A DNA stretch of 57,834 nt. It comes from Polynucleobacter necessarius (GTDB lineage: Bacteria; Pseudomonadota; Gammaproteobacteria; Burkholderiales; Burkholderiaceae). The position numbers were made by a program, and so were the translations under genes. Shown piece after piece: positions 11,918 through 30,547 of the stretch. Below the pieces are notes generated by a model that was not told the origin of the DNA, did not search any database, and saw nothing but the letters and a program-made list of their open reading frames with translations. Location: positions 920,250 through 978,083 of the forward strand of contig NZ_LT606949.1 of the NCBI RefSeq assembly GCF_900095215.1, in the 5' to 3' direction. Numbering within the stretch: position 1 is the stretch's first letter; each line of letters opens with the position of its first letter.

Positions 11918-12889
11918 TCAACTCTTCACGAGGCGCTGATATTTAGCCAACTCGCCAGCCAAGAACAAACTAAATGCAGCAGGCGTTGCGGAACCTTCAG
12001 GTTGCAAACCTTGCGCATCGAGCGTTTTCTTAATTGGTGGATCAGCTATAGCAGCCTTTACCGCCTGATCAATCTTATTTACTACGGCTGGATCCATGCC
12101 TGTGGGACCCATGACGGAGTACCAATTCGTAACATCAAAGCCAGTAATGCCAACTTCGTTAAAAGTAGGCACATTCGGAAGAATAGACAAACGTTTTGGC
12201 GTTGAAATGGCCAGGGCTTTCAGGCTACCATCTTTAATCTGCTGCAAATTGGGAGGCAGGGTGTCAAAGTTCATCGTAATTTGCCCGCCAAGTAAATCGA
12301 TAATGGCTTGACCGCTACCTTTGTAAGGGACGTGATTGAGTTGAATGCGAGCAATCTTGGCAAATAAGACTCCTGCCAAATGTTGTGTGCTGCTGATGCC
12401 TGAAGATCCATAGGTCATCTGACCAGGATTCGCCTTAGCAATGGATATAAGCTGCGAAACCGAGTTCACAGGTAATTAGGCTTTCACAACCAATACATTT
12501 GGAACATACCCAAGGTAAGTAATTGGAGTGAAATCGGTTGCGGGATTATAGGGAACATTTGTTAGCACATACGGCGCAATCGCATTCGAGTTGGAATGTC
12601 CCACGAATAAAGTATAATTATCTGGCGTGGCTTTAGCGATTTGATCGGCCGCTATCGTACCAGCCGCACCAGATTTGTTTTCAACAATCACGCTCTGACC
12701 AAGAATCTCACCCATCTTTGGCGCAATCGCAAGAGCAACAATATCAGTACCGCCGCCTGGCGCAAAACCAACGATCAATCGAATTGGTTTTGCGGGATAG
12801 ACTTGCGGACCTACTGCAAAAAATGAACTTGTGGCCAGCGTAATTGCTAGCAAGCCACGCATAGCCCACCGAGGTGTTTTAACCAACAT
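11918..12889 (-). pseudogene. Bug/TctC-family substrate-binding protein, one nonsense codon
   Basis: A signal peptide is followed by the mature-start motif YPAKPIRLIVGFAPGGGTDI, typical of Bug proteins. The frame is continuous except for TAA at 12476-12478 between VLVVKA and LPVNSVSQLI. The second half has the usual PYKGSGQAIIDLLGGQI and the C-terminal helices. Restored length is about 323 residues, standard for the family. With a single stop, it may be a recent loss. Its ligand cannot be told from sequence. Confidence 0.9.
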
Positions 12890-23316: not shown

Positions 23317-23890
23317 ATGAATTCAACTGCCAGCACCCCTATTTCATTTGATTACCCCCAGCAAGACTCTGCTGGAGTCACATGCACTGCCCAGGCTTGG
23401 GCGAAGACCCACCCCAACTTCATAGCTCCGAGAAGGCAGCTGTGATTGCCCGCATCAAACAATTGTTGAGTGAAAAAGATGCGGCTTTAGTTGCCCACTA
23501 TTACGTCGATGGCGATATTCAAAATTTGGCTTTATCTACTGGCGGCTATGTTGCCGACTCATTAGAAATGGCGCGCTTTGGCACAAATCATCCCGCCAAA
23601 AATTTGATGGTTGCTGGCGTGCGCTTCATGGGTGAAACCGCCAAGATTTTGTCTCCAGAAAAACGGGTCTTCATGCCGGACTTAGATGCAACCTGCTCTC
23701 TTGATCTAGGAATGGCTTACAAGGAATTCTGAATTGCCTTGAGAATGCTTCTGGTGAAATTGTGATTGATGAGCCTATTCGCGTAAAAGCATTAGGATGC
23801 ATCGAGCGCATGTTGGATGTCACGAAACATCACCCTGACCTGCTTGCCAAAGCGCAGCATGGCTTTGTAAAAAATATTGGCGCAGCTTAA
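23317..23890 (+). pseudogene. nadA: Quinolinate synthase, frameshift and large internal deletion
   Basis: From ATG 23317 the usual N-terminus ([20 protein letters not shown]) is read, then a missing base near 23410 shifts the frame. The new frame gives [19 protein letters not shown] and [20 protein letters not shown] up to ATCSLDLG. The next residues (MAYKEF, then a shift to [23 protein letters not shown]) belong to the C-terminus. About 185 residues are missing compared with the normal 350-380, including two of the three [4Fe-4S] cysteines and most of the active site. The gene cannot make quinolinate from iminoaspartate and DHAP. Confidence 0.92.
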
Positions 23891-23967
23891 TTTAGTTATT
23901 GTTTTTCTTGTTTACCTCTTCATTCTTTTTGAATGTATTTTTTGCAATTTTTATTTATAGCTAGATA

Positions 23968-24831
23968 TTGTTTTTCATATTTGAATATAACGAAACACTC
24001 GAGCAAGCCCGCCAACGTAATATTGCAGATGCACTCATGGAAGACATTGGCACTGGCGATTGGACTGCAAAGCTAGTTCCCAGTAAACCAGTTAAAGCCC
24101 AGCTGATTGTTCGTCAAGAAGCCGTGCTTTGCGGCGTCTACTGGTTTGAAGGAACACTCAAGAAACTCGACCCCAATACGAAAGTGACCTGGCATTACCT
24201 TGAGGGTGACTTGATGAAGTCAGACACCAAGGTATGTGACATCAAGGCCGACTCTCAGGCCCTGCTTTCTGCTGAGAGTACTTGCATTCACTTCTTGCAA
24301 ACACTTTCGTGGACGGCAAGCATTACTCGCCAACACGTAGATGCGATTGCTGGTGCTAGTCCCAATCCAAATGGCTGCGCAGTGCTGGATACACGCAAGA
24401 CCATTCCGGGATTACGCCAGGCACAAAAATATGCAGTACTGGTTGGTGGCGGAAAAAATCAACGTTTAGCCCTATGGCATGGCATTCTCATTAAAGAGAA
24501 CCATATTGCTGCCGCTGGCAGCGTAACTGCCGCCCTGAAAAATGCGCAAGCCTTAAATGCTGGGGTAGATATTCAGATTGAAGTAGAAAACTTTGCTGAA
24601 TTGGAGGAAGCTTTAGCGGCAGACGCCAAGAGCATTCTGCTAGATAACTTTAATACCGAGCAAATGAAACAAGCTGTAGCTATTACTTCTGGCAGAGCTT
24701 TGCTCGAAGCCTCTGGTGGCATCAATCTAGATCAAATGCGCGCTATTGCCAGCACTGGTGTTGATCGCATTTCACTGGGAAAACTCACCAAGGATGTGAA
24801 CGCCGTTGATTTTTCAATGCGCATCTTGTAG
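23968..24831 (+). CDS. nadC: Quinolinate phosphoribosyltransferase, open frame but altered at conserved sites
   Basis: A 287-codon open frame matches NadC end to end: EDIGTGDWTA, DTRKTIPGLRQAQKYAV, LIKENHI, LLDNFNTEQM and SLGKLTKDV. NadC turns quinolinate and PRPP into nicotinate mononucleotide. Three conserved places differ: the usual ERTxLNF is ESTCIHF, SGVA is SWTA, and GGGxNHRLGL is GGGKNQRLAL. These are normally substrate-contacting residues. The start is also odd: TTG at 23968 has no ribosome-binding site, and the position where ATG would be expected (23977) reads ATA. It may be a missense-damaged gene not yet interrupted. nadA and nadB nearby are broken. Confidence 0.75.
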   Translation: MFFIFEYNETLEQARQRNIADALMEDIGTGDWTAKLVPSKPVKAQLIVRQEAVLCGVYWFEGTLKKLDPNTKVTWHYLEGDLMKSDTKVCDIKADSQALLSAESTCIHFLQTLSWTASITRQHVDAIAGASPNPNGCAVLDTRKTIPGLRQAQKYAVLVGGGKNQRLALWHGILIKENHIAAAGSVTAALKNAQALNAGVDIQIEVENFAELEEALAADAKSILLDNFNTEQMKQAVAITSGRALLEASGGINLDQMRAIASTGVDRISLGKLTKDVNAVDFSMRIL

Positions 24832-24834
24832 TGG

Positions 24835-25080
24835 CTTCAAGCATTTAGTAGCGATACAAATATAGACTCACTCATCTTAGCTTGGCGATACGAATATTTG
24901 TCACCTTCCTAGGGGTAAGCATAGGAGATTTTTCAAGACACAATGTCTTCATATTAGAAAAATCATGCTTTGTTAATAAGCCATAATTATTTAAGGATTC
25001 AGCTAGCTCTAAGAGCTCGTTCAGGACTCTTTTTGCTTCAGTCTTGATTTTTGATTCATAGCAATTATTCCCTTTAAAAG
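24835..25080 (-). pseudogene. XRE-family antitoxin or regulator remnant
   Basis: Translating the minus strand with no start codon gives KTEAKRVLNELLELAESLNNYG, then LTPRKVTNIRIAKLR and a stop at 24872-24874. After one frameshift, KMSESIFVSLLNA follows, then a stop. This is the N-terminal and first helix-turn-helix pattern of small regulators that pair with RelE/HigB-like toxins (usual form: LSPKEIKAIREK...VSQAVFARYLN). It is cut off against the nadC 3' end. No matching intact toxin is beside it. Confidence 0.5.
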
Positions 25081-25087
25081 CATTTGC

Positions 25088-26410
25088 CTAATTAGCCCTC
25101 CCCATACCCCTATAAATCATCTGCCGCTCTAGTGCGTTACGGATGAACTCAATATTACTTCTCAAGCTATAACACTCAGCAGTGGCAAGCTTAGCCGCTT
25201 TTGATCTAAGCACTCTTCGCTCCATCTCATTGAGTACCTCAATATATTCGCTTCTACGATTAGGGTCAAAATTCTCGATTGTGGTTTGTTCAAATTTATC
25301 CAATTCTTTATAAATTGAATTAATCTGCTTCTTCGCCAAATTGGTTCTGTAAGTGGGAATTGATTTAATAATGGGATAAGCAAACGCCGCAAAGGGAAGC
25401 AAGAGGAAGAACATGCGCTCCAAGAATTCAGTCAACCAAAATGGCAGATCCTTCATTAGAATCGGCATACCTTTTTGAGAAAAAAACTTAGCCTCTTCGC
25501 TCAATGGTGCTTCGGTATTCATGTAGACAGGAAACTCCCCCGCCTTTGAGAAATACGATTTGGGGCCATTAATCTCACGGGCGGCCTCTAAAAAAAGCAC
25601 CTGGATAGCTGGGATGCAGGCGATCGTCAATCAAGAGATTGGTGGTAGTGGGGATGAGCTGGATAGTGTGATCGCGAATATTGTTTCCTAGCTCAAAACC
25701 ACCCATCGGCACAGAAACCTCCTCTAAACAAGGCAATAAACGAGTATAGTCATCTGCGCGCTGAAATGTAGACAGCCTAATAGCGGGATTTGTAATTAGT
25801 TTTTGGACATTTGGAGAGTCAAAGCCATCTACTAAAACAACGCCATCGATTTGACCCGACTCTAGCGCTTGTACTCCATCGGCATTTCCAAGTCTTAATA
25901 AATTTGGAGAATGAGTATTTAAATTATTTAACTTAAATATATTTAACGCCTGCGTACGTGTGCCACTGCCAACCGGTCCAATATTAATCTTCAGCTTAGC
26001 GATATCTCGGTCAGTAATATGAGCACGCTCATTAAAGACATCCTTGCGATAAAAAATCCATACTGGCTCATGGTCCACACTACAAAGAGACTGAACACCG
26101 GCTCAGTTTTCTACCGCAATCATTCCTCCTTGTACAAAGGCTGCCTGTATGTTGGGTCTTTGCGATCTATCAGGTGCTGGAGATTTTCTTTAGAGCCATG
26201 CGTCTCCACCAACTGAAGATCAATTCCTTTTTTCTCAAAATAGGATTTGTATTTCTCACACAGGACCTTGTAGGAGCCGCCTGAACCAGTAGCCATCAAC
26301 ACCTTATTGGGCGGCGCAGGTTTTGCAAACCAGATCAAAACAGTTAAAGCAAGAATAAGAACAAATATCAGCGGCCACACTTCTTTTAAAACGCCAAACC
26401 TTAATCTCAT
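25088..26410 (-). pseudogene. TAXI-family TRAP transporter solute-binding protein with C-terminal membrane domain, two frameshifts
   Basis: The N-terminal anchor (WPLIFVLILALTVLIWF) leads into VLMATGSGGSYKVLCEKYKSYF, the TAXI family start. A shift near 26110 passes to DHEPVWIFYRKDVF and the PVGSGTRTQALNIF ligand segment, and another near 25615 to the C-terminal region with a membrane helix (MFFLLLPFAAFAYPIIKSI) and a charged coiled tail. Total about 440 residues, as expected for the larger TAXI proteins with an extra C-terminal helix. Its transporter permease is not in the window. Confidence 0.8.
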
Positions 26411-26568
26411 CTGCAGCGGTTTGGTAAACCGCTGATATGTGTTCGTAGCCCTCTTCTTTCAAGCTAGCCATGACACTCCCCCGTTTGCTTTTGCTAGCTT
26501 AGCACCAAAAATCACTGTTTTATCTGGTCGAGGTTTAACTTGAGCTGGGTTAGCCTGGTCTTATGCTT
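26411..26568 (-). other. Intergenic stretch with possible gene debris
   Basis: The 158 bases between nadB and the TAXI gene read on the minus strand as short open pieces such as DKTVIFGAKLAKANGG and YQRFTKPLQMRLRFG. The latter may be the true N-terminus of the TAXI protein. I cannot assign the first piece. Confidence 0.3.
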
Positions 26569-28228
26569 CTATGCAGCTGAATCGCTCTCAGCGCCTTCCA
26601 CTTGGGGAGTCAGAATAGTTGGATAAGACACTGCCCAAGTACCGGGGTAATCGCGGCTGTAATGCAGCCCCCTACTTTCTCTACGCATAAGCGCCGATCG
26701 AACGATAAGCTCCGCACACTCCAGAAGATTTCTAAGCTCGATTAAGTCACGCGTCACCTTAAAGTTAGCGTAATACTCTTGCACTTCATAACGGAGGAGT
26801 TTAATGCGATGAAGCGCTCGCTCAAGACGTCGATTGGTTCTCACGATACCGACGTAATTCCACATCAGAGAGCGAAGTTCGTCCCAGTTATGAGCAATCA
26901 CCACTTGCTCATCCGCATCTTCAACCTGACTCTCATCCCAAAGTGGCAGATTTGGCATTGCTGGCGTCTTCCAAGAAGAAATATCTTCAGCCGCAGCTTT
27001 ACCGATCACTACACACTCTAATAAAGAGTTGCTCGCTAAACGATTGGCACCATGTAAACCGGTGTAGGTTGCCTCGCCTACTGCATAGAGTCCCGGTAAA
27101 TCGGTGCGACCTTTAAGATCAGTCACCACACCACCGCAGGTGTAATGCGCCGCTGGCACTACCGGAATAGGCTCTTTAGTGATATCTAAGCCGATACTTA
27201 TGCAGCGTGCATAAATCATCGGAAAATGCTCTTTAATAAATGCTTCGCCAAAATGGGTAGCATCTAGATGAACATAATCTAAGCCATGCTTCTTCATCTC
27301 AAAGTCGATTGCCCTAGCGACAATGTCACGCGGAGCTAATTCATTGCGGTCATCGTGCTCTGACATAAAACGTGTGCCATTAGGTAGCTTCAATAAACCA
27401 CCCTCTCCACGCATCGCTTCGGGTAATCAAGAAAGTGCGGTCACTCGGGTGATACAAACAAGTCGGATGAAATTGAATAAATTCCATATTGCCTACACGG
27501 CAGCCTGCGCGCCAGGCTATGGCAATACCATCACCAGTGGCGATGTCAGGGTTGCTGGTATAGCGATAAACCTTACCCACACCACCAGTAGCCAAAACCA
27601 CCGATTTGGCTTCAATCGTTTCTACGCGATTATTTTTAATGTCGAGTGCATACACACCATAACAACGATTCGGCTTGGTGCGCTGCGTTTTTGCATCTAA
27701 TTGACGATTAGTAATGAGATCAATAGCAATCCAATGCTCCAGAATCTGAATATTTTTATGCGCCCTCGCTTTATCCAAGAGTACTTCATGAATTGCTTTG
27801 CCAGTTGCATCTGCAGCGTGCGCAATACGACGATGACTATGGCCACCTTCACGGGTTAAATGCAAAACCATGAGGCCCGATTTATCTTCTGTAAATGGAA
27901 CGCCCTGCTCAACCAACCAACGCATGGCTTCCGCACTTTCTTCAGCGATATACCGGGCTGTTGATTCCACCACAAGACCTGCACCAGCATCCAAAGTATC
28001 AGCTACATGAGAATCTATACTGTCATGCTCTTTGTCTACCACCCTAACAATACCGCCTTGAGCCCAAGCTGTAGCAGCCTCACCTAGACCGCGTTTAGCC
28101 ATCAAAATCACGGGCTGAGATTCAGCCATGTGCAAGGCAACAGTCAGACCAGCTAAGCCTGCCCCAATAATGAGGACAGGATGCTCAGCTTTACTGCTGG
28201 AGCTTGAGGAGGGTTTTGAACTGGCCAT
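26569..28228 (-). pseudogene. nadB: L-aspartate oxidase, one frameshift
   Basis: The N-terminus has an FAD motif VLIIGAGLAGLTVALHMA and the substrate region GGHSHRRIAHAADATG; the second piece has [30 protein letters not shown] and [26 protein letters not shown]. The frame breaks near 27410 where FLIT should be followed by EAMRGEGG; an extra C in a CCC run accounts for it. Restored length about 553 residues, normal for NadB, which oxidises aspartate to iminoaspartate for quinolinate synthesis. With nadA deleted, the de novo NAD route is closed at both first steps. Confidence 0.92.
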
Positions 28229-28268: not shown

Positions 28269-28530
28269 TTATCGCTTAATGTCTCGATAGAAATTTTCAT
28301 GAAACCCTATAGAGTCCAAATAAATTAGTCTTAACCCACCATCCACCGAATATCCAAGCAAATAAAGCTGGTTGCCACTTCTAAACTGAAATACCCACAA
28401 TTCAGACAAGTCGCCCTTCTTTTTTCTCCAATGGTGGGTTTTTAGCCACCTCGACTACAGCGTCATCGACATCCTGGGCGATTTTGTCATTTAGTTTTTT
28501 GTATTGTCTAAGGAATCGGCGTGTTTGCAA
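28269..28530 (-). pseudogene. RelE/ParE-family toxin, frameshifted, fused to the fdsA stub
   Basis: From TTG 28530 the frame gives QTRRFLRQYKKLNDKIAQDV and DAVVEVAKNPP, then shifts at an A run near 28418 to KKGDLSELWVFQF and GLRLIYLDSIGFHENFYRDI, stop at 28269. This is the RelE-type mRNA endoribonuclease pattern (N-terminal FxRxYKKL, C-terminal GxHENFYRDLKR). It abuts the fdsA stub with no intergenic space. No antitoxin gene is adjacent; the XRE remnant at 24.9 kb is 3 kb away. Confidence 0.65.
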
Positions 28531-28705
28531 TACATTACCGTCTGGACGATAGCCATCTTTAAAAACAAAAATGCGGAATATCAATGCCGTGGCACTTGGC
28601 CGTCTTGAGAATTGTCTCCCCTTCATAAGAAACAATCGTCTTGCCATCTAGGTTGAACTCAACAGTTTGCAACTCGAGTGCTTGAGGATTTGTTGGTGCG
28701 TTCAT
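28531..28705 (-). pseudogene. fdsA: Formate dehydrogenase alpha subunit, 5' stub
   Basis: The ATG at 28703-28705 starts a protein with FNLDGKTIVSYEGETILKTA and HGIDIPHFCF, the N-terminal 2Fe-2S domain of FdsA-type NAD-dependent formate dehydrogenase. A TAA arises from an extra T in TGTTTTTAAAG; in the corrected frame KDGYRPDGN follows, where the family normally continues with the cluster cysteines. Instead a RelE-like toxin begins at once. Over 850 of about 950 residues, including the whole molybdenum-binding part, are gone. Confidence 0.75.
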
Positions 28706-28744
28706 GTTTGTCTCGTTATTCCCTGATTTTTATATGTACTGTTA

Positions 28745-30547
28745 TTAAGCTACTTCTTCCGGGAAATATTTATGAATACAGCGGATTGGATTTGGAGCGG
28801 CTTGACCTAGACCACAAATAGAAGCGTCAACCATCACGGTTGCTAGATCTGCTCAAGTTTCCTGATCCCAGGATTTAGCCTGCATCAATTGCGCAGCCTT
28901 GCCTGTACCCACGCGACAAGGAGTGCAGTGACCACAACTCCTCATGCTCAAAGAAGTGCATGACATTCAACGCCATATCGCGTGCTTTTTCTTTATCTCT
29001 CAACACCATGACTTCGGCTGATCCGATGAAACATCCATAAGGCTGCAAAGTATCACAGTCGAGCGGAATGTCGTTCATAGTTGCTGGCAAGATACCGCCA
29101 GATGCTCCGCCTGGTAAATAACCGTAGAACTTGTGACCCTCTTGCATGCCGCCACAATATTCATCAATCAGTTCTTGGATGGTAGTACCTGCTGGCGCTA
29201 GTTTTACTCCTGGTTTCTTCACACGGCCACTGACGCTAAAGCTACGCAGCCCCTTGCGGTCATGACGACCGCAAGAACTAACACTCGGGGCCACGTTGCA
29301 CAATATCGCGCACCCAATAAAGCGTCTCAAAGTTGTGCTCTAAAGTTGGCCTACCAAATAAACCAAATTGAGCGATGTATGGAGGACGCATGCGAGGTTC
29401 GCCGCGCTTTCCTTCGATACTTTCAATCATTGCGGACTCTTCACAACAAATATAGGCGCCTGCGCCGCGACGCAACGCAATATTGGGGCAACTGGAATGG
29501 AGGATTAGCCTTGAGCTTTGCCACTTCCGCCTCGAGCAACTCTCGACAACCATGGTATTCATCGCGCAAATAGATGTAGAAAGCATCGATGCCCACTACA
29601 TTTGCAGCAATCAACAATCCCTATAAGAAACGATGGGGGTCGCGCTCCAAGTAAGTGCGATCTTTAAATGTCCCTGGCTCACATTCGTCGATATTGACTG
29701 CCATCAACTTTGGAGCAACTTGATCTTTTACAATGCGCCACTTACGACCCGCCGGAAATCCTGCGCCGCCTAAACCGCGCAGACCAGAATTCTCCATGGC
29801 TTGAATGATGCTCTCGGCATCTTTCAAGCCTTCATCAATTTCTTTGGCTAAAGCGTAACCGCCTTGAGCGCGATAAGACTCGTAACCCACATAATCAGGG
29901 AAAACTGCTTGCATCTCACCCTGTGGTGAAATGCCCTGCTCGGCCAATGAAGCTGGATCAAAGTTGGCGTCATCTTTTGCCATTGGCTGAGTAGTGAGCT
30001 TATTGCTTACAGCAGCTTTCACCTTGTCGGTCGTCGCAAACAAAACGGGATATTGATGAACTACGGCTACAGGCGCCTGCTCGCATCGACCCACGCAAGG
30101 GGCTGCAACCACTTTAATCTTGGGATTGCCCAGGATGCTTAGCAATTTTTCTAATAAGTTTTGCGCGCCAGCCAACTCACAGGCAATGCCATCGCAAACA
30201 CGAACAATGATATCCGCAACTGGATCATCACTGCGCACTACTTCGAAGTGATGATAGAAGGTGGCTACTTCATACACTTCAGCCATCGGCAAATTCATTT
30301 CCTTAGCCAAGGCAACTAAGTGGCGATCGTGCAAGGCAAGGTATTCATCATTTAACTTGTGAAGATTTTCAATCAGCAAGTCGCGACGATGTGGTGCGTT
30401 ACCAATTAATTGACGCACTTCAGCGATTGAAGCATCATCCGCTTGGCGCCCCTTCAACTTACTCTTACGGCGAATGGTTTCCATCAAATCACCTGAAGTT
30501 GCAACCGCAACCACTTTGACCTCTCCAGAAGGCTTTGGATGATTCAT
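28745..30547 (-). pseudogene. fdsB: Formate dehydrogenase beta subunit (NuoE-NuoF fusion type), several lesions
   Basis: The first 308 residues contain a NuoE-like 2Fe-2S domain (VCDGIACELAGAQ, APCVGRCEQAPVAVV) joined to a NuoF-like FMN domain (GLRGLGGAGFPAGRKWR, NIDECEPGTFKDR). A TAG at 29621-29623 interrupts DPHRFL-stop-GLLIAANVVG, and further frame changes follow near 29485, 29285 and 28945, with TGA at about 28860. The 4Fe-4S region and the end (SICGLGQAAPNPI) are still readable. The subunit would pass electrons from formate to NAD+. With fdsA deleted, formate oxidation is lost. Confidence 0.85.

Follow-up and report, generated by a model that had tools for sequence, protein, structure and literature searches.

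The question raised by this stretch of Polynucleobacter necessarius DNA is how its owner obtains nicotinamide adenine dinucleotide (NAD), when all three genes of de novo synthesis that it carries, nadA, nadC and nadB, are broken or altered. The window, by which is meant the whole stretch of 57,834 nucleotides that was analysed, corresponds to G000:C1:920250-978083, where G000 is the P. necessarius genome under study, a single contig of 1,703,354 bp; all lesions were read from the assembled sequence and are described at the level of the assembly. A sequence-only reading of the window had held that de novo synthesis appears lost at all three steps and that nicotinamide, nicotinate or their ribosides would be supplied instead. 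The likely answer is a different one, namely that a reduced endosymbiont is losing its NAD pathway and would import NAD(H) or another pyridine nucleotide from its host. The features that bear on the pathway are the following, where ORF stands for open reading frame.

Positions 23317-23890, plus strand: nadA remnant (quinolinate synthase), with pieces 23317-23408, 23409-23710 and 23711-23887 in three frames
Positions 23710-23711, plus strand: nadA deletion point, with about 184 residues gone, including two of three cluster cysteines
Positions 23968-24831, plus strand: nadC (quinolinate phosphoribosyltransferase), with an open frame that begins at a TTG (23968) and with ATA at the native start, 23977-23979
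Positions 24277-24291, plus strand: altered nadC motif AERTxxN, with R101S (24277-24279) and N105H (24289-24291)
Positions 26569-28228, minus strand: nadB (L-aspartate oxidase), as ORFs 28228-27380 and 27414-26569, with a 1-bp insertion near 27423

The damage is most extensive in nadA, of which only residues 1-35, 32-138 and 317-375 of the 375 reference residues are recognisable, junction residues included and spread over three frames. Relative to all four references, one base is deleted at 23408/23409, and at 23710|23711 reference position 395 abuts position 949, such that 553 bp are missing, a number that is not a multiple of three. Alignment to solved structures indicates that cluster cysteine C127 is kept, and that C214 and C311 are deleted. 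The remnant is the sole match to the family in the whole genome, with no second nadA found. Among 41 genomes of the genus, which were also the sample for the other profile searches, nadA is one full-length frame in 37, the exceptions being G000, G017 (two frames), G022, an 83% complete genome with pieces on two contigs, and G021, which is 79% complete and has no match. In a wider count of 186 genomes, a match is present in 171, and three of the 15 genomes without one are at least 90% complete; fragmentary matches in G022, G055, G157 and G158 come from multi-contig drafts, several of them at contig ends, and G147 has three matches. A NadA record named P. necessarius, from a contig of 1,907,709 bp, is full length; strain STIR1 is not among the best 120 NadA matches listed. 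In 83 related loci (80 named loci plus G017, G016 and G079, with contig-end cuts counted separately), nadA is whole in 75 and broken in two (G017 and G079), a contig end interrupts it in five, and one gives no match.

For nadB, the 1-bp insertion near 27423 is seen against four of four references. The two halves remain 95-96% identical to free-living NadB, and each falls under the family cut-offs. A second nadB was not found in the genome; the other match, at 662770-664383, scores 366 against a nadB cut-off of 452.75, and frames resembling it, likewise below the cut-off, occur in most of the genomes searched and are presumably the succinate dehydrogenase flavoprotein. In the 83 related loci nadB is whole in 73, cut by a contig end in three, broken in two and without a match in five. 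Provided that the assembly is right, nadA and nadB are certainly pseudogenes.

The case of nadC is less clear-cut. Its frame is open, and the product is 94% identical to the free-living protein, with M1I, R101S and N105H at columns that are invariant in 78 other aligned relatives. The possibility that these changes are merely genus-wide was dropped: the Gln in GGGxNQRL is shared with 3gnn, but M1I, R101S and N105H are all private to the window among the aligned relatives. In the database, Met, Arg and Asn occupy positions 1, 101 and 105 in 120 of the 120 matches listed, with Met1 there partly by construction, as gene callers pick starts. At the DNA level, the start is ATG in 57 of 57 pattern-matching loci (84 were examined, and two of the 57 are the same place in G079) and ATA in G000. 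In 1qap, the residue aligned with Arg101 is the Arg of GERTALNF. The Arg105 primer printed in the available part of PMC4065032, for the Mycobacterium tuberculosis enzyme, encodes the same motif, and the Arg105Ala enzyme is described there as having no detectable activity. No second nadC was found in the genome. Of the 83 related loci, 77 have a whole nadC, a further four have a frame that is open from the native start, and in two the gene is broken. The nadC gene is thus probably, though not certainly, dead, a loss of activity predicted from the changed residues.

Much of the sequence-only reading of these three genes holds. The internal loss of about 185 residues of nadA together with two cluster cysteines corresponds to the 553-bp deletion that removes C214 and C311, the single-base frameshift of nadB is borne out by the references, and the alteration of an open nadC at conserved residues recurs as the three changes at invariant columns. 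Its proposal that second copies of the three genes be looked for elsewhere is answered by a search of the 1.70-Mb genome in which none was found. As a whole, its claim that de novo synthesis is lost stands for nadA and nadB, if the assembly is right, and is only likely for nadC. The early frameshift in nadA and the out-of-frame nature of the deletion are additions to it.

The decay may extend to the last step of the pathway. The nadE gene lies outside the window at 1072448-1073194 and carries an in-frame TGA where G017 has residue 382 of 541, such that the part with TTGNKSE is lost and SGGVDS is kept. G000 is the only genome of the 41 with a stop inside the nadE match, G022 being without a strong match, and a NadE database record of 379 aa from a contig of 1,703,354 bp heads the NadE listing. 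The other two PF02540 places in G000 recur at similar length across the genus and are not nadE; we take them to be GMP synthase and a tRNA thiolase. The TGA would abolish NadE activity. The nadD gene, at 1136902 (L118:1864-2568), is open, and its sole departure from invariant columns is T18I in GGTFDPPH, a position at which 21 of 21 other rows have Thr (22 of 23 stretches examined gave a row). An altered genetic code with TGA as a sense codon was considered and dropped: TGA closes two of the window's 20 long open frames, and three of eight in three other stretches of G000, the nadE stop among the three.

Family searches were made for routes by which a precursor could enter. NAPRTase/NAMPT (PF04095; pncB, nadV) was found in none of the 41 genomes, G000 included, with six of 14 controls positive. 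PnuC (PF04973) is absent from G000 and G017 and occurs in six of the 41 genomes, with five of 14 controls positive. For the kynurenine route, 3-hydroxyanthranilate dioxygenase (PF06052) was found in 0 of 41 genomes, but no control genome was positive. PF01467 matches at four places in G000, of 170, 163, 234 and 335 aa, lengths that recur across the genus and that presumably fit coaD, an hldE-like gene, nadD and ribF; with all four accounted for, no extra NadR or NadM is left. The suggested supply of nicotinamide, nicotinate or ribosides is not supported, given the NAPRTase/NAMPT and PnuC results and the TGA in nadE. Of the genes named by the sequence-only reading as its possible support, pncB and nadV on the one hand and PnuC-type uptake of nicotinamide mononucleotide or riboside on the other were searched for with a negative outcome in the 41 genomes and in G000, respectively.

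The setting of these losses is a genome of reduced coding content. In the window, 57% of the sequence lies in open frames of 200 codons or more, whereas 53 related loci have a mean of 84% and a lowest value of 60%; the same measure averages 53% in ten stretches of G079 and 75% in six of PPGSP2, and is 66% in one of G017. The long neighbouring genes of the window, of 461-793 aa, have open frames, as would hardly be expected if the assembly were poor throughout. The best 17 of the 80 nadC relatives listed (L002-L018) are all named Polynucleobacter. Reduced genomes with many pseudogenes are described for Polynucleobacter endosymbionts of Euplotes in the available parts of PMC5018217 and PMC11253213, and the reduced coding content, size and pseudogenes of G000 fit these published endosymbionts. 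G000 is most likely a reduced Polynucleobacter that lives as an obligate endosymbiont of a Euplotes ciliate, a host assignment suggested by genus, size and decay.

Other genomes of the genus place the loss in context. In G017 (1,550,368 bp), nadA, nadC and nadB all have frameshifts, and the nadD and nadE frames are open. In G079 (1,655,757 bp), nadA has a stop and frameshifts, nadC has frameshifts, and nadB is cut after about 69 codons, where it runs straight into the far end of the neighbouring receptor gene (L135:5742-6298), as after a deletion; no nadE match was found in the 180 kb of that genome searched for nadE. PPGSP2, also P. necessarius (LT606947, 1,893,413 bp), has open nadA, nadC and nadB frames of 375, 284 and 552 aa; its nadE match, of 540 residues, and its nadD frame are likewise open. 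Judged by the ends of the matched pieces, the lesions of G000 are at other places than those of G017 and G079. A tree of 69 rows was built from nadA, nadC and nadB, and forced clades were compared by the approximately unbiased (AU) test. A clade of G000, G017 and G079, as expected from a single loss, was rejected (AU p 0.004), as was a clade of G000 and G017 (AU p 0.01); a clade of G000 and G079 is compatible with the data (AU p 0.69), the constrained tree even scoring better. If the tree of these three genes tells the history of the genomes, the pathway would have been lost at least two times.

These observations can be drawn together as follows. The NAD pathway appears to be decaying from end to end, with nadA and nadB as pseudogenes, nadC deprived of its start and catalytic Arg, nadE cut by a stop, and nadD open with an alteration in its nucleotide-binding motif, and the cell would most likely import NAD(H), or else another pyridine nucleotide, from the host cytoplasm by a putative carrier. 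Import of a nucleotide is the most likely solution because the searches gave no enzyme for free-base entry and NadE is cut short. Without a complete NadE, the routes from nicotinate or quinolinate, of which it is the last enzyme, could not be finished, which favours import of NAD(H) itself. We infer nucleotide import, like the host and the loss of NadC and NadE, from sequence. A stricter version, in which a recently evolved betaproteobacterial endosymbiont has no dependable step left between aspartate and NAD, not even NadE, intact host NAD(H) enters by a carrier that is neither NTT nor PnuC, and host dependence arose at least twice in Polynucleobacter, is possible but rather doubtful.

A number of points weigh against nucleotide import or against the damage that it presupposes. 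The NTT family of NAD carriers (TLC, PF03219) was found in 0 of 41 genomes, but no control genome was positive. The open nadA, nadC and nadB of PPGSP2 mean that the loss is not general, and with nadD and nadE open in G017, an earlier nucleotide, nicotinate mononucleotide or nicotinate adenine dinucleotide, would suffice there; the question of the carrier is the same for G017 as for G000. NadC scores 256.4 bits and passes the NCBIfam nadC cut-off of 198.4, the TTG three codons upstream of the ATA could serve as its start, and a Shine-Dalgarno site is, by eye, not clear in the nadC relatives printed either. Departures at invariant columns are not peculiar to nadC: the open neighbour pgm has five in 461 residues, against three in 284 for nadC, and one relative, L059, also has three in NadC. 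Pairwise ratios of nonsynonymous to synonymous substitution rates (dN/dS), calculated for nadC, the nadB halves, the nadA piece, pgm and nadE, give no relaxation of nadC, though dS is near saturation; at a dS of about 0.7-1.8 to the ten nearest relatives, this test of selection is without power. As for nadE, its frame is open before and after the TGA, and the stop must be recent unless it is an error. In G001, a 2.2-Mb draft outside the 83 loci, nadC (L186:1099-1953) is interrupted near residue 47 by a lone in-frame TAA; lone stops are thus found in non-reduced genomes too and need not mean loss. Given that example, the nadE stop alone is weak evidence.

The same uncertainties leave some room for other explanations. 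It is improbable that nicotinamide, nicotinate or ribosides are taken up and salvaged by enzymes or carriers that escaped the family searches: the assembly does show de novo loss and an open NadD frame, as such salvage would have it, yet NAPRTase/NAMPT is missing from all 41 genomes and PnuC from G000, PF01467 leaves no additional NadR or NadM, and NadE is truncated. Nor does a life like that of Bordetella seem probable, with nadA and nadB lost, NadC working, and host quinolinate imported and finished by NadC, NadD and NadE. There is precedent for it, as Bordetella and Streptococcus pyogenes live by quinolinate salvage and Bug/TctC genes adjoin nadC in several families, Burkholderiaceae among them (both in the available part of PMC11452294), and nadC is the sole open gene of the three and lies above its family cut-off. 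This explanation must contend, however, with a nadC that starts with ATA and has Ser and His for catalytic Arg101 and for Asn105, with frameshifts in nadC of G017 and G079, and with the truncation of nadE, whereas the route calls for NadD and NadE intact. In addition, no NadC protein from the 1,703,354-bp contig is among the best 120 listed, though the truncated NadE heads its own listing.

Errors of sequencing or assembly, with one or more frames truly intact, are a further explanation. They would suit the facts that single-base indels account for two of the lesions and one codon for the nadE stop, that the pieces are still 83-96% identical to free-living proteins, and that G001, a non-reduced draft, also has a lone nadC stop. 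A 553-bp deletion, however, is not a slip in a single-base run, and frameshifts, deletion, start-codon change and stop all hit one pathway, in a window whose long genes are open and a genome whose completeness is given as 99.94; two other genomes, G017 and G079, are broken at other places. Error is accordingly very unlikely, and import of a pyridine nucleotide remains the preferred explanation.

Loss of NAD synthesis is a known kind of decay in intracellular bacteria and endosymbionts, and the interest of the present case is in its extent and in the missing uptake route. NAD import by obligate intracellular bacteria is described for Protochlamydia NTT4 and Chlamydia Npt1 (available part of PMC5381601), and G000 is predicted to be alike in taking up the complete dinucleotide from its host. 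Unlike those systems, G000 has no NTT match (in a search with no positive control), and its loss looks recent, the remnants being 83-96% identical to free-living proteins. The loss of nadA and nadB is shared with the quinolinate auxotrophs Bordetella and S. pyogenes, as far as the accessible text of PMC11452294 describes them, from which G000 differs by a nadC damaged at its start and catalytic Arg, a truncated nadE and no NAPRTase match. Candidatus Kinetoplastibacterium, whose members are betaproteobacterial endosymbionts, cannot make nicotinic acid according to the accessible part of PMC5632650, to which G000 would be similar as a betaproteobacterial protist endosymbiont without nicotinate synthesis; G000 differs in that its gene remnants are still recognisable and its genome is partly decayed. 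In the same part of that text P. necessarius is described as a prototroph for all vitamins, a statement that, for NAD, G000, G017 and G079 as assembled do not fit and PPGSP2 does. G000 resembles the published Polynucleobacter necessarius in genus, reduced genome and many pseudogenes, as far as the available parts of PMC5018217 and PMC11253213 go. The literature matches listed contain no account of lost NAD synthesis in symbiotic Polynucleobacter, and such losses may be tabulated in Boscaro 2013 and 2017. If import is indeed the answer, these symbionts, unable to make a universal cofactor and lacking those known salvage genes that could be tested for, must use an unrecognised membrane route for pyridine nucleotides. 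The order of loss can be tested directly, since among related genomes the pathway is open in some, partly broken in others and fully broken in others again.

Some further genes also appear to be damaged. Between nadC and nadB lies one further feature:

Positions 25106-26471, minus strand: remnant of a solute-receptor gene, split by frameshifts into four pieces, of which one contains a stop

The remnant, which we take to be a TAXI-type solute receptor, corresponds to an open ORF of 457 aa in L003 and L008; the gene is partly deleted in G079 and has no match at the corresponding place in PPGSP2. Beyond nadB, at 28402-30547 on the minus strand, are gene pieces that appear to be frame-broken and that presumably resemble formate dehydrogenase or NADH-dehydrogenase-type genes; the ORF beside nadB in PPGSP2 is 964 aa (L024:9357-12251). 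The gene beside nadE (L117:1-1417, G000:C1:1069500-1070916), presumably membrane pyrophosphatase-like, has lost an internal stretch and its frame relative to G017 (L119:4768-6465), and the far end of the G017 copy is itself frame-shifted. Lastly, at 11918-12889 on the minus strand of the window, a periplasmic binding protein gene, whose product we assume to be TctC/Bug-like, is apparently split into ORFs of 183 and 137 aa.

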